Shown here one piece after another: positions 5,458-10,438 of a stretch of DNA of 33,042 nucleotides. Within the stretch, counting starts at the first letter, position 1. Each line of letters starts with the position of its first letter. The DNA lies in the NCBI GenBank assembly GCA_035533075.1, contig DATLUO010000009.1, positions 1 through 33,042 on the forward strand. Direction: 5' to 3'. Made by a program: the position numbers and the translations under genes. The notes below the pieces were generated by a model that was not told where the DNA came from, ran no database searches, and saw only the letters and a list, made by a program, of their open reading frames with translations. The DNA comes from Pirellulales bacterium (GTDB taxonomy: Bacteria; Planctomycetota; Planctomycetia; Pirellulales; JAICIG01).

Positions 5458-5952
5458 ACGGCAAAGAGCGACAAGAGCAAAACGAAACGCGATGCCGAGC
5501 ACGACAACGAGCGTGTCGTGGCCCAGAACCGCCGCGCGCGTCACGAGTACGACGTGCTCGAGACGCTGGAGTGCGGCGTCGTGCTGGTGGGCAGCGAGGT
5601 GAAGAGCCTGCGCACGGGCAAGCTTTCGCTGGAAGAGGCTTACGGCCGCGTGAAAGGGGGCGAAGTCTGGTTGCTGGGCTGCGATATTCCCGAATACGCC
5701 CAGGCCAACCGCTTCAACCACGACCCGCGCCGCCCGCGCAAGCTGCTCATGCACCGCCGCGAAATCCGCAAGTTCGCCAACCGGGCCTACGAACAGGGCC
5801 TCACGCTGGTGCCGCTGAAGATGTACTTCAAACAGGGCCGCGTGAAGCTGCTGATGGGCATTTGCCGTGGCCGCAAACTTCACGACAAGCGCGAGAAGAT
5901 CAAAAAGTCGACGGTCCAACGCGACATCGCGCGGGCCATGCGGCGGAAGTGA
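5458..5952 (+). CDS. smpB: SsrA-binding protein SmpB, probable ACG start
   Basis: SmpB binds tmRNA and delivers it to stalled ribosomes for trans-translation. The core is unmistakable: AQNRRARHEY, LVGSEVKSLRTGK, RPRKLLMHRREI, QGLTLVPLKMYFK and the basic tail HDKREKIKKSTVQRDI. The only conventional start is GTG 5518, which begins at AQNRRARHEY and cuts off the usual polar N-terminal tail. The frame stays open upstream to a TGA at 5425. At 5458 an ACG follows AAAGGAG (5444-5450) by seven bases, giving T/M-A-K-S-D-K-S-K, a typical SmpB beginning, and 164 residues in all. I therefore place the start there, as either a rare ACG initiation codon or an ATG-to-ACG change. No tmRNA gene is adjacent. 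Confidence 0.88.
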   Translation, partial: TAKSDKSKTKRDAEHDNERVVAQNRRARHEYDVLETLECGVVLVGSEVKSLRTGKLSLEEAYGRVKGGEVWLLGCDIPEYAQANRFNHDPRRPRKLLMHRREIRKFANRAYEQGLTLVPLKMYFKQGRVKLLMGICRGRKLHDKREKIKKSTVQRDIARAMRRK

Positions 5953-6099
5953 GGGGTAGCGGAATGGAATAAACGAACCGCGAGAAGGTCGCCGAGCGAA
6001 GAGAGAAGCCGGGAGGAAGCCTGGATCCGCGCCAGCGGCCGCGACCAGTGGCCTTACGGGCCCCGTGACTCCAACGTGCCGGATGAATCTGTACAACGC

Positions 6100-6151
6100 A
6101 CGGATGAAACACAGATCAAACTCGGATTTGCGTTATCCGTGTTTCATCCGT
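6100..6151. repeat. Inverted repeat, 13-bp perfect arms
   Basis: ACGGATGAAACAC at 6100-6112 is the exact reverse complement of 6139-6151. Pairing continues inward for four more bases with one mismatch, leaving an unpaired centre. It stands in the non-coding gap after smpB, just before a restriction-modification gene scrap. ATCCGTGTTTCATCCGTG-type words are dispersed intergenic repeats in environmental genomes as far as I recall, so a scattered repeat is more likely than a terminator. Confidence 0.5.
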
Positions 6152-6223
6152 GAGAATCAGCGGCTGATAACCCTTGGCGAAACCGCCGTCGGCCGCACGC
6201 TGAGACCCAAGGTCCGCTGCAAC

Positions 6224-6471
6224 CTTCATCCGCGCAATCAGGGCACCGGCATCCCCGACGGCGGGCTCGACACCGCCGACCAGTTTCAGCGGCCATCGGC
6301 CGGCGAGCCGAAGCCCGGCCAACTCCCAGCCGCGGCGCCATCGAGGTCAAGGGTACGAAGCCCGACGAGATGGCCGTCGCCGACAGCCCGCAAGTGGCCG
6401 GATACCTGAAGACCTACGGCATCGTGCTGGTCACCAACCTGCGCAGCTTCGTGATCGTCGATCGGAATTGA
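6224..6471 (+). pseudogene. Frameshifted N-terminal scrap of a DNA methyltransferase / type ISP-like restriction enzyme
   Basis: One frame reads HPRNQGTGIPDGGL then DQFQR and PKPGQLPA up to about 6330. The continuation is in another frame from 6331: RGAIEVKGTKPDE, VAGYLKTYGIVLVTNLRSFVIV, ending at TGA 6469-6471. Both parts match the order of an N-terminal segment I recognise in large Eco57I/type ISP-like adenine methylase-restriction proteins (GxGIPDGG, then RGxIEVKGT, then QVxxYxxxYxxVLVTNxRxFxxV). Those proteins are around 1000 residues long; only about 80 residues are left here. A C-terminal scrap of the same kind lies at 7602-7667, beyond the VapC gene. Confidence 0.6.
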
Positions 6472-6570
6472 CTTTCTCCCGCAGTTGGCCGAAGATTCTT
6501 TTGGAGGCTCGGTTGAGGAGCCGCCTTCGGGTTGCCGTGTTTTTATGTCCTGTTTCCTGCTCCTGGGTGA

Positions 6571-7134
6571 ATGTCCCGCATGATGAAGACGTTTTCAGCC
6601 ATTTTTGAGAACGGCGTCTTCCGGCCCGTCGAGCCCGTCGATTTCCCTGAGCACTGCCAGGTGCGTGTCGATGTGCGATCGGTTGAACCGACGGGCGAAA
6701 GCAGCCGTGATGAGGTTTCTGCCAACACGCCGATGCCCCAGCGAGTGCGCCTCGTCGGCAGGCTGGCGATGATTCCTGCCGGCACGCATGCCTTCGACCT
6801 CGTTCTGGATGACGGGCGGCAGGCCGGGGTCGAATTGGTCGCAGGCGACACGGCGGTCGTCTCCCGGCTGATCGGCGAGCGAGTACTTGTCCTCGGCACG
6901 GCGATGTACGGACCTTCTGGCAACTTGCTGAGGATCGACGCCGACGAGGTCAACCTTTCGGGAGACGACGGCCGCTTCTTCTCGGCGGCCCCGCGACTGG
7001 CCCGCGAACGCTTGGATGTTGATGAGGTTCTGCATGAGCAGCGTCACAAGCGTGGTGTGTCGGCCATCCTTGGCCAATGGCCGGGCGACGAGAGCGATGA
7101 CGAGATCGCGGCGGCACTGAAGGAACTGAGTTGA
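6571..7134 (+). CDS. DUF104 (AF2212-like) antitoxin, long form
   Basis: The N-terminus MKTFSAIFENGVFRPVEPVD (from the ATG at 6583) is the signature of AF2212-like antitoxins, usually 60-75 residues. This one has 187 residues: after the N-terminal module there is an added beta-rich domain of about 100 residues (VRLVGRLAMIPAGTHAFDLVLDD, ERVLVLGTAMYGPSG), and then an acidic tail (WPGDESDDEIAAALKELS) of the kind that occupies a PIN toxin's active-site groove. Starts at 6571, 6580 and 6583 are all possible; 6571 is given as the longest. The stop TGA shares one base with the ATG of the vapC gene. It probably represses its own promoter, as such operons usually do. Confidence 0.75.
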   Translation: MSRMMKTFSAIFENGVFRPVEPVDFPEHCQVRVDVRSVEPTGESSRDEVSANTPMPQRVRLVGRLAMIPAGTHAFDLVLDDGRQAGVELVAGDTAVVSRLIGERVLVLGTAMYGPSGNLLRIDADEVNLSGDDGRFFSAAPRLARERLDVDEVLHEQRHKRGVSAILGQWPGDESDDEIAAALKELS

Positions 7135-7589
7135 TGGCCTCCGCGGCGCCTGCGGGCTACCTGCTCGACACGAACATTCTCGTTCACCTGATTCGCGGCA
7201 AGGCGGTCGGCAAGGCGATCGAGGCCCACTTCGGTTTGCACGGCGGGCTCAATCGCTCGATCATCTGCGTGGTAACTGTCGGCGAAATGTATTCGTTGGC
7301 GAGAAAATGGAATTGGGGGCAAAGCCGCCTGGCTCGCTTGCAGCACTTGCTCGGGGAAGTGGTATGGGTGGACATCAACCGTCCATCGGTCCTCGATGCC
7401 TACGGCGAACTCGACGACCTGAGCAACCGACTCGGCCGGCCGATGGGCAAGAACGACGTCTGGATCGCTGCGGTGGCCAAGCTCTCTCGTATGACGCTGC
7501 TCACGACCGACGGCGACTTCGATCATCTGCATCCGGGCCACCTGATCCGGATTCGCCTCGACGAGAATACGGGCAATCCAGTGCCCTAA
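7134..7589 (+). CDS. vapC: VapC-type PIN-domain ribonuclease toxin
   Basis: It encodes 151 residues from the ATG at 7134; a TTG at 7131 adds one. The four-acid PIN active site is complete: D12 in YLLDTNILV, E51 in TVGEMYSL, D108 in GKNDVWIAA, and D126/D130 in TTDGDFDHL. PIN toxins of this type cut tRNA or rRNA when freed from their antitoxin. The gene overlaps the stop of the DUF104 antitoxin by one base, so production is coupled. Unlike the PIN copy at 931-1194 it appears intact. It sits between two scraps of a degraded restriction-modification gene. Confidence 0.85.
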   Translation: MASAAPAGYLLDTNILVHLIRGKAVGKAIEAHFGLHGGLNRSIICVVTVGEMYSLARKWNWGQSRLARLQHLLGEVVWVDINRPSVLDAYGELDDLSNRLGRPMGKNDVWIAAVAKLSRMTLLTTDGDFDHLHPGHLIRIRLDENTGNPVP

Positions 7590-7601
7590 GACAACAACTG
7601 C

Positions 7602-7667
7602 GCCTATTGGCGGAACGTGCCGATCAACGTCTGGGAGCACACGATCGGCGGCTACCAGGTGATGAAT
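7602..7667 (+). pseudogene. C-terminal scrap of a DNA methyltransferase / type ISP-like restriction enzyme
   Basis: About 22 residues, AYWRNVPINVWEHTIGGYQV, match the conserved motif near the C-terminus of the same large methylase-restriction proteins (WxNVPxxVWEYTIGGYQVxKKWLSYR), as I recall it. The similarity stops where KKWLSYR would follow. It starts 12 bases after the vapC stop and is on the same strand as the N-terminal scrap at 6224-6471. Confidence 0.5.
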
Positions 7668-7682
7668 ACCGCCGCACCAAAG

Positions 7683-7736
7683 ACGCCCCCTTCGACTGGT
7701 CGAGCGTCACCGCCGGCAAGACGGCGCGAGCTTCGT
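7683..7736 (+). repeat. Direct repeat copy 1 (about 54 bp)
   Basis: It shares a 28-base identical core (7689-7716, CCTTCGACTGG...CACCGCCGG) with 7880-7907, and a slightly diverged flank (GACGGCGCG, then CTTCGT). The copies are about 190 bases apart. In one frame it reads PFDWSSVTAGKTARAS, so it may derive from the end of a gene. Confidence 0.7.
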
Positions 7737-7873
7737 AGTCCTGTATGGGGATTACTCCTACCTCACGCGGCACGCGAAACGGCTCCGCGTAGCGGGTCGT
7801 TTAGCAGGATTGCTCCACCCCGTTCGATCTAGATAGACTATGGGTGTCTTCCTTCGCGTCAGCGGCAGCCAAC

Positions 7874-7926
7874 ACGCCGCCTTCGACTGGTCGAGCGTCA
7901 CCGCCGGTTAGACGGCGCGGCTTCGT
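7874..7926 (+). repeat. Direct repeat copy 2 (about 53 bp)
   Basis: This is the second copy of the segment at 7683-7736. The 28-base core is identical, with a one-base deletion and a few changes in the flanks. Here the reading frame is closed by TAG soon after the core. Confidence 0.7.
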
Positions 7927-8134
7927 GGGCCTCGATTGGCTTCGCCCTCTTCCTTGGCAACCCGATCCAAGGACCGCTGGTCGCCCACCGAGGCCAACGC
8001 CTGGGTGTCTTGCTTGCCCTTCCTTGGTTGACCGGCAAGCCGTTGGAGCGCTGCGGGAAAGCGGCGACAGCCATACGGCTTGCGGAAGCACTGGAAACAC
8101 GGAAGCGCGGGTAGCTACCCGGACCGAGAGAGCG

Positions 8135-8809: not shown

Positions 8810-9306
8810 AACACTGCATCCTTTCAATAAAGAGGGGATTAAATCTCCCATACACCTCAACAGAGATGCCAACCGGCGGGGCCGATTCAGGAAGGTCCGG
8901 GCGGTCCAATTTACAATTGGAGTTCCCGGACCTTCCTAGCTTGGCCCAGCCGGCCCCCACCGCACCGCCGGCTCGTTGAACCGGCGGCAAATGGCGCCCG
9001 CGGGCGTGGCATCGCCAATGATGGCCGGCCGTGCGTTCGACGTCAGCGGGGTCATCTGTTCGCGGGTTCCGCTCCGCGCGGGCCGTTGGCCCCGCGGTTC
9101 AACGTCGCACGAAGGGCCAACAGCGGGAAAGCTGATCTCTCCGCGCCAGGGTAACTTCCCGAATTCGCGCGGTCAAGCATTTGTAGGGGTAACGGCTCAA
9201 ATAAGGTGTCGAGCGTTTCTTTCCACGCGCTGTCGAAATCGGCCATTTGCAAGCTGGCTTGACATCGGCTGCAGTAACCGCCACGATTGGCGGTGGAGAC
9301 GCTTCA
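8810..9306. other. Divergent intergenic region with hairpin
   Basis: Between the minus-strand gene starting at 8809 and the plus-strand antitoxin at 9307 I see no convincing gene. It holds the ribosome-binding site of the 8809 gene, the large hairpin at 8889-8937, and presumably promoters for both sides. The stretch 8940-9250 may be degraded coding DNA. Confidence 0.5.
8889..8937. repeat. Nested inverted repeat (13-bp perfect outer arms, inner palindrome)
   Basis: AGGAAGGTCCGGG (8889-8901) is the exact reverse complement of 8925-8937. Centred between them is CCAATT-TAC-AATTGG (8906-8920), itself a palindrome, with four unpaired bases on each side. The whole could extrude as one long cruciform. 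It lies 80-128 bases upstream of the minus-strand gene starting at 8809, so an operator, a leader structure, or a terminator of an upstream relic are all possible. Confidence 0.6.
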
Positions 9307-9570
9307 ATGCCAATTCTCTTGACCGAACAGCAATGGGCCGATGTCCAAAAGGGCACCGAGGTGCCTGTGCGTGTCCAGGATCCGACGCAGGCCGCCACTT
9401 TTGTGCTGCTGCGGGCCGAGGTGTACGACCGGTTCAAGTCGCTCTTCGAAGAAGATCCCATTAGCCAGCAGGAGCGGCTCTATCAGCTCCAGCAATTCGG
9501 GCGCCGCGCGGGCTGGGACGATCCCGAGATGGACATCTATGACGAGCTTGACCCGCGCCGAGCGTCATGA
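9307..9570 (+). CDS. Antitoxin of a MazF/PemK-type pair
   Basis: It encodes 87 residues (MPILLTEQQWADVQKG to YDELDPRRAS) from ATG 9307, with GGAG about eight bases upstream. A TEQQ helix start, a strand pair (VPVRVQDPTQAATFVLLRAEVY) and an acidic C-terminal tail (GWDDPEMDIYDELD) fit the small antitoxins that precede PemK/MazF genes in planctomycetes. No classical AbrB or HTH DNA-binding domain is evident. Its stop overlaps the toxin start as ATGA. Confidence 0.7.
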   Translation: MPILLTEQQWADVQKGTEVPVRVQDPTQAATFVLLRAEVYDRFKSLFEEDPISQQERLYQLQQFGRRAGWDDPEMDIYDELDPRRAS

Positions 9571-9920
9571 GCGTTAACCGCGGCGACGTCGTGCTCGTCG
9601 ACTACCCGTTCACCGACCGCCGAGGCAGCAAAGTGCGTCCCGCGCTTGTCGTGCAGGCCGACATCCTCAACCACCACATCACCGACACCATCTTGGCGGC
9701 AGTCAGTCGCTCGACGCATCGTGCGTCCGCGACGCAGCTTTTCGTGGATATCTCCACGGCAGAAGGCAGTCAAACGGGCTTGCGCCAGAATTCAATGATC
9801 CAGTGCGAGAACTTGCTGACCTTCGATCAGCGATTTATCATCGCGAAAATCGGAGACATGCCACCCGCTCTTTTGCGTCAGATCGACGCCTGCCTCAAAG
9901 CCGAATTGGATCTACCGTAG
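9567..9920 (+). CDS. MazF/PemK-family endoribonuclease toxin
   Basis: It encodes 117 residues, normal for the family (105-120). The N-terminal RGDVVLVDYPFTDRRGSKVRPALVV is diagnostic: the G-D-[IV]-[VW] strand, the loop, and the K-x-R-P motif with the catalytic Arg at position 24. The later GLRQNSMIQCENLLTFD segment carries the conserved Ser region before the second conserved loop. The family cuts single-stranded mRNA at short sequence motifs unless bound by its antitoxin. It is coupled by a four-base overlap to the antitoxin at 9307, and the pair appears intact. Confidence 0.88.
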   Translation: MSVNRGDVVLVDYPFTDRRGSKVRPALVVQADILNHHITDTILAAVSRSTHRASATQLFVDISTAEGSQTGLRQNSMIQCENLLTFDQRFIIAKIGDMPPALLRQIDACLKAELDLP

Positions 9921-10370: not shown

Positions 10371-10438
10371 AGGCGATAGGCGTTGGGCGTTAGGCACGAT
10401 CTTCCAATGGCTTCCCTAACGCCCAACGCCTATCGCCT
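10371..10438. repeat. 24-bp perfect inverted repeat with 20-base spacer
   Basis: The 24 bases at 10371-10394 are exactly the reverse complement of 10415-10438, with 20 bases between them. Each arm is built from related short words (GGCGATAGGCGTTGGGCGTTAGG). It truncates the Rpn-type scrap on its left and precedes galM on its right. It looks like a dispersed palindromic element or the remnant of a small non-autonomous one; no coding sequence is inside. Confidence 0.75.

Follow-up and report, generated by a model that had tools for sequence, protein, structure and literature searches.

A VapC toxin-antitoxin pair with a chimeric antitoxin amid remnants of type ISP restriction-modification genes in a planctomycete genome

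At this site, one or two type ISP restriction-modification (RM) genes appear to lie in ruins, and a compact type II toxin-antitoxin (TA) operon would be the sole part still open. Both TA frames are open, and the antitoxin is a chimera, with a DUF104 start followed by the C-terminal half of a VapC antitoxin type that is ~315 residues long. As an account of the whole, we consider it rather probable that an RM-associated toxin pair has outlived its RM neighbors and now lies amid what is left of them. The initial annotation had described a DUF104-VapC pair between two scraps of one RM gene; DNA and protein matches agree that both scraps are of type ISP, on the same strand and in gene order on either side of the open pair. 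Taken by itself, such a site would be ordinary decay; what makes it more than that is the chimeric nature of the antitoxin, together with the relatives embedded in RM operons.

The window is the whole stretch of DNA analyzed, a complete contig (C9) of 33,042 bases from a genome of 8.54 Mb in 296 contigs. Its genes and scraps at this site all lie on the plus strand. The intact upstream neighbor is smpB (5518-5952; Pfam SmpB, E 8.9e-58), followed by a dispersed, partly palindromic short repeat (6099-6152) just left of the N-terminal scrap. The N scrap itself spans 6184-6464, and a leader of 106 bases (6465-6570) separates it from the antitoxin gene (6571-7134, 187 residues, with the start at 6571 or 6580). 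The vapC gene (7134-7589, 151 residues) is followed by the C scrap in two parts, 7592-7666 and 7667-7749, and by a second copy of the last ~70 bases of an ISP gene with its stop codon (7865-7933). The location given earlier for the scraps was right; their limits had to be moved to 6184 on the left and 7749 on the right, with the extra gene end added. The leader has no other match in the own genome at E <= 0.01, and a consensus scan of 6380-7800, leader included, found neither promoter nor terminator. ARAGORN found no tRNA or tmRNA in the window, which argues against an island at such a gene. The short repeat at 6099-6152 and another partly palindromic one at 10371-10438 are present at many places in the genome, the former matching many contigs and also the window itself in inverse orientation.

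Type ISP RM enzymes, of which LlaGI and LlaBIII are examples, are single polypeptides with nuclease, helicase, methylase and specificity regions. An intact type ISP protein of 1168 residues from genome G078 (Pfam PF18135 Type_ISP_C and PF02384 N6_Mtase) served as the reference. At the DNA level, the N scrap shares 94% identity with the beginning of an ISP gene on contig C138 of the same genome (L009 9032-9313, E 8e-123) and 93% with a second C138 copy, both over 282 columns. Against the G078 protein, tblastn reads it as codons 37-84 in one frame and 83-129 in another, and the frameshift noticed initially is thereby located near 6325. The C scrap matches a decayed ISP 3' end on contig C255 over 75 bases at 92% and over 83 bases at 89% identity (E 4e-25 each). 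Its first part carries the C-terminal motif AYWRNVPINVW...IGGYQVM, and its second part comprises the gene end plus ~40 bases beyond. These two pieces are 130 bases apart in C255, and that stretch (~43 codons) is absent from the window at 7666/7667; the corresponding motifs begin at residues 1087 and 1152 of 1168 in the G078 protein. The additional gene end at 7865-7933 is 90% identical to C255 and 86% identical to 7671-7742.

Together the scraps cover codons 37-129 and parts of ~1084-1162 of 1168, so that ~11% of the codons are left; the first 36 codons, ~950 central codons (129 to ~1084) and the ~43 C-scrap codons are missing. The scraps are fragments of type ISP genes, matching the N-terminal nuclease region and the C-terminal specificity region of these enzymes and of the G078 relative. 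Unlike such enzymes, they are frameshifted and have suffered internal loss, and they do not constitute an enzyme. Translated searches are in keeping with the class proposed at first. A 46-residue N peptide has four matches among plasmid records, three annotated as "type ISP restriction/modification enzyme" and one unannotated, and a 25-residue C peptide has 20, of which 16 are annotated as type ISP. These C-peptide matches (E 1e-3 for two, 0.4-9 for the other 18) are weak on their own.

The toxin is assigned to the PIN family (PF01850, E 2e-12) and carries the acidic residues D12, E51, D108 and D126. In an alignment of 13 toxins, L11, D12, T13, N107, D108 and D126 are among the invariant columns and E51 is nearly invariant. 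VapC-type PIN proteins cut RNA, and the C-terminal part of the antitoxin blocks them. The pair shares with VapBC systems the PIN toxin with its conserved acidic residues, the DUF104 start, and an antitoxin gene directly upstream in an operon-like arrangement, judged by gene positions, the two genes overlapping at TGATGG (7132-7136). By family resemblance, the window toxin would be a VapC-type PIN ribonuclease that is bound and blocked by the C-terminal region of its antitoxin, as VapB-type antitoxins do. The closest relative of the toxin, in genome G250, is 66% identical over residues 4-151, end included, so the toxin is not truncated by the right joint. The pair differs from the candidate two-gene system PDC-M32 as modeled in PADLOC, since none of the 13 toxins matches a PADLOC model; the A-subunit model PDC-M32A weakly matches 5 of the 16 antitoxins in the alignment (best E 1.6e-5). 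PDC-M32 appears as a prophage annotation in the part of PMC12429752 consulted.

For the antitoxin, Pfam identifies PF01954 (DUF104/AF2212-like, E 1.4e-9) in residues 4-37, aligned to positions 1-34 of the 59 in the profile. Association of DUF104/COG2880 antitoxins with PIN partners is noted in the consulted part of Makarova 2009 (PMC2701414). The DUF104 start (~6580-6690) gives way to a different family at 6727-7131, where residues 53-187 match long antitoxins at five loci with pairwise identities of 36-47%, and were also aligned with them. These long antitoxins (~315 residues) sit directly upstream of VapC homologs, and none of the five tested has a Pfam match. Searching with one query, we found 15 matches in 14 of 392 genomes of the phylum, own genome included. 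The window antitoxin is the sole match that lacks the entire N-terminal part, covering positions 174-315 of the query only; one other lacks the C-terminal end. Because the match is confined to this region and the start is DUF104, the antitoxin is a chimera. It neither matches DUF104 over its whole length nor is homologous to the long antitoxins over their ~315 residues, and its residues 53-187 set it apart from ordinary VapBC/DUF104 systems. The "DUF104-VapC pair" of the initial annotation thus stands as to toxin and antitoxin start, and falls for most of the antitoxin. Another DUF104-like frame in the same genome (L034, contig C88) is 51% identical over 35 residues. A structure predicted from the single antitoxin sequence has a pLDDT of 34, too low to be usable.

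A search for the long-antitoxin family in a class with nine genomes added no further genome, and one query (L105) had no match in plasmids and phages at E 1e-3. Viral contigs contributed 12 loci, one of which (L192, 23% identity) aligns over positions 8-315 and the other 11 within 253-315. At L192 (5953-7361 of its contig), the distant long antitoxin is followed by a PIN-like frame.

Gene neighborhoods were compared at 18 loci outside the own genome, 13 from the long-antitoxin search and five from relatives in the order that were reached through VapC and in which a long antitoxin was seen; two VapC-only loci (G093 and G032) showed no long antitoxin and were left out. An RM gene is the next same-strand neighbor in 8 of the 18. 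Five of these eight pairs precede hsdM, and three of the five also follow hsdS (G274, G014 and G446). In G478, hsdR and hsdS lie upstream, hsdS being separated from the pair by at least two ORFs, while hsdM follows directly; in G254, too, hsdM comes after the TA. The vapC stop overlaps the hsdM start (ATGA) in G446, G478 and G014. Of the remaining three, G010 has its pair between type III mod and res genes, the latter assigned by size and gene order with a ResIII match (E 0.0024) below the Pfam cut-off. The G289 pair directly follows a single-chain type IIG gene (Eco57I/TaqI_C), and that of G280 precedes an Mrr_cat endonuclease gene. These pairs would form a still unnamed planctomycete TA family, repeatedly found inside or beside RM operons, to which the window pair would belong. 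In the window itself the RM neighbors are debris rather than uninterrupted genes.

The other 10 loci are without a same-strand RM neighbor. One of them, G256, has a methylase gene convergent to the TA; the neighbors at the other nine include ROK family, BatA, SDR, CHAT, histidine kinase, ClpB, acyl-CoA dehydrogenase, DUF2130 and DEAD/MZB helicase genes. Scans at the negative loci took in a part of the neighbors, at G059 a single downstream frame, which had no match, and at G290 the upstream gene. The nearest relative, G250, is flanked by a hydrolase gene and a ROK-family gene and has no RM gene beside it. In at least four of the 18 (G016, G053, G353 and G445) vapC is broken or was not found, and in all four the next same-strand neighbor is something other than an RM gene. 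The G353 locus has a helicase/Res-like ORF, judged by eye, ~5 kb away, and the G053 helicase shows a sub-threshold ResIII match.

Three of the decayed family members deserve a separate description. At L190 (G053, 637-7639 of contig C51), the decayed pair lies upstream of a 1696-residue DEAD-box helicase with an MrfA-type Zn-binding domain. In L184 (G353, 153-3030 of contig C362), the vapC homolog appears to be split into two pieces ~2.5 kb apart, with transposase-like ORFs between them that we take to be IS66-like. The own genome holds a second family member (L102, contig C76, 13993-15384), with an open antitoxin of 317 residues and a frameshifted vapC. It has no direct RM neighbors, and a distant ISP-like ORF is ~7 kb away. 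The frameshift demonstrates that pairs of the long-antitoxin family can also die.

How strong the RM association is depends on the background rate. For 8 of 18, binomial probabilities are 1.7e-11 at a rate of 1.2%, 1.1e-6 at 5%, 1.7e-4 at 10% and 0.016 at 20%, all at assumed rates and without a matched control. G010 and G014 had prompted the idea of an RM association; recounting without them gives 6 of 16, with probabilities of 2e-8 (1.2%), 0.003 (10%) and 0.08 (20%), again at assumed rates. An antitoxin tree was built from 18 sequences: the C76 antitoxin, that of the window, and those of all loci outside the own genome except G053 and G445, 16 in number. The five type I loci require four changes on this tree, most of whose forks are weak, and a single origin of the type I linkage may fit it. 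The window antitoxin pairs with G250, weakly (80/49). This grouping with a relative that is not RM-linked weakens the claim that the window TA arrived with an RM locus, and for the same reason its ISP setting may be accidental.

In the favored reading, the TA would probably serve as an addiction or back-up module: once the cell loses the RM locus or silences it, the antitoxin, being labile, would fade and the toxin would arrest translation. Loss of the locus would leave the toxin without fresh antitoxin, and the pair should therefore resist deletion. The RM part would have decayed by a frameshift and several deletions, whereas any deletion that extended into the TA would be selected against, since it would free the toxin. 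Such selection could account for an RM remnant that begins 2 bases after the vapC stop; one joint speaks for it. Along the way the antitoxin gene may have changed as well, losing its first ~170 codons and gaining in their place a short DUF104 module and a new leader. Where relatives are embedded in hsd operons, coupling to hsdM would allow the pair to guard the operon or to act as a back-up defense.

ISP pieces elsewhere in the own genome bear on this history. Besides the window, they occur on five other contigs: C138 (two pieces), C174, C39, C140 and C255. Searches with the intact protein and with the C138 copy found no full-length ISP copy in the genome. Measured on the reference, the C138 pieces comprise codons 4-199 and 4-469, and the C255 piece codons 583-647 and 904-1162. 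The C39 piece has two in-frame stops, the C174 piece is in two frames and the C140 piece is ~90 bases long. The pieces differ in their breakpoints, a pattern more in keeping with decay than with a recurrent insertion site. Of the two options offered initially, insertion of the TA into a defense gene or decay of a defense island with the addictive module kept, the latter is the better. Across genomes, ISP matches at E <= 1e-20 occur in 11 of 146, own included, and G078 is the only other close one. On C138, the two truncated ISP starts stand in tandem (L009, 7188-10460), 91% identical over 730 bp, with two ORFs without Pfam match between them. Contig C140 also holds a 174-bp piece of the smpB 3' end (L126, 3192-3365), 90% identical to window 5790-5963, at ~0.6 kb from a fragment of the start of a further ISP-like gene (43%, E 4e-9) that tblastn did not recover. 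The genome seems rich in short partial gene copies.

The joints of the TA were inspected for traces of how it came to lie here. The left joint is at 6464, where 86 bases of perfect identity to C138 copy B come to an end; outside that stretch, 16 of 196 columns of the N scrap (~8%) differ from copy B. The initial annotation had suggested a look for repeats at the joints; among the repeats of 6300-7800, none occurs at both (6464 and 7592). The longest direct repeat there, 25 bases that are 72% alike (a raw identity, with no chance estimate), pairs 6445-6469, across the left joint, with 7729-7753, across the outer end of the C scrap. The initial annotation had also proposed a look for the intact gene at the same site in relatives; no relative close enough to reveal an undisturbed site was found. 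The smpB gene was matched in 54 of 57 genomes, own included, with 29 loci among the genome contigs. The downstream comparison covered the nearest relative, G001 (smpB 84-85%), the only one placed in the same family, and a different gene follows smpB there.

That the TA simply entered a single intact ISP gene is rejected as stated: with codons 129 to ~1084 absent, such an event cannot alone explain the arrangement. Two histories can be proposed. The one we find slightly more attractive, at a little under even odds, is compatible with an outliving RM-associated pair and places the TA between two tandem ISP copies, of which the upstream one lost its 3' part and the downstream one its 5' part; the scraps would then derive from two genes. 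It has precedents in C138, where two N-terminal copies lie 1.6 kb apart with unrelated ORFs between them, in the two gene-end copies of the window, 195 bases apart, and in G289, where the TA directly follows a single-chain IIG gene. An ISP-TA-ISP locus was not seen, which speaks against it. A history closer to the original proposal, and one we regard as possible on a more tentative footing, has the TA inserted into one intact ISP gene most of which was removed by later deletions. The common strand, the gene order and the similar divergence of the scraps (94% versus 89-92%) suit it, whereas the ~950 codons missing around the site and the want of a repeat shared by the two TA joints do not. Both scraps may, but need not, come from one gene: their nearest copies, on C138 for the N scrap and on C255 for the C scrap, do not extend into the part matched by the other.

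It is also conceivable, if unlikely, that the juxtaposition is due to chance, the TA having landed or survived beside ISP debris in a genome rich in fragments and repeats. The smpB piece on C140, the scattered ISP pieces (~85 bp to ~1.6 kb), the many dispersed repeats and a nearest relative that is not RM-linked would all agree with this. Pure chance is made less probable by the presence, to the left and right of the pair, of scraps from one kind of gene that keep the gene order, and by the RM habit of the family. An assembly chimera, in which the metagenome bin was joined through ISP repeats, is very improbable. In its favor, the N scrap ends in 86 bases that match C138 copy B exactly, and the bin has 296 contigs. 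Against it, the TA joint falls at the end of this identical stretch and must therefore exist in some real molecule, the remainder of the N scrap is ~8% different, and exact matches between the C scrap and C255 never exceed 21 bases.

Ribonuclease toxins within RM operons have precedents. The PrrC anticodon nuclease is embedded in the hsd operon PrrI, and HEPN toxins occur in RM operons (PMC3710099 and PMC3506569, parts consulted). What these systems have in common with G274, G014 and G446 is that a type I RM operon includes a gene for a predicted ribonuclease toxin. PrrC is held by Hsd proteins without an antitoxin; the planctomycete relatives, by contrast, embed a whole TA pair. Coupling of RM immunity to suicide toxins, with the RM proteins as the brake, is proposed in the consulted portion of PMC3506569; that of a review on RM and TA regulation (PMC3874152) has no bearing on embedding. 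We found no description of a complete VapC pair between hsdS and hsdM in the literature searched, from which subscription journals were largely absent.

If complete TA pairs are built into hsd and mod/res operons, they would represent another form of coupling, and one that is easily testable. Tentatively, and with less confidence than in the survival of the pair itself, we suggest a distinct planctomycete RM-TA composite in which VapC and a ~315-residue antitoxin, placed between hsdS and hsdM or between mod and res, would be coupled to the methylase in translation, such that loss or inhibition of the RM operon would deprive the cell of antitoxin and lead to arrest. The window would then be a fossil of this composite on an ISP gene, with a toxin pair that survived the RM enzyme and an antitoxin rebuilt around a DUF104 start. 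It suggests what may remain once the RM half dies, an addictive pair held amid debris.

A second toxin gene occurs nearby. The window encodes a MazF/PemK-type toxin at 9567-9920 on the plus strand (Pfam E 1.6e-18), preceded by a small ORF, and the whole (9247-9920) is likely a second TA pair, within 2 kb of the VapC pair.
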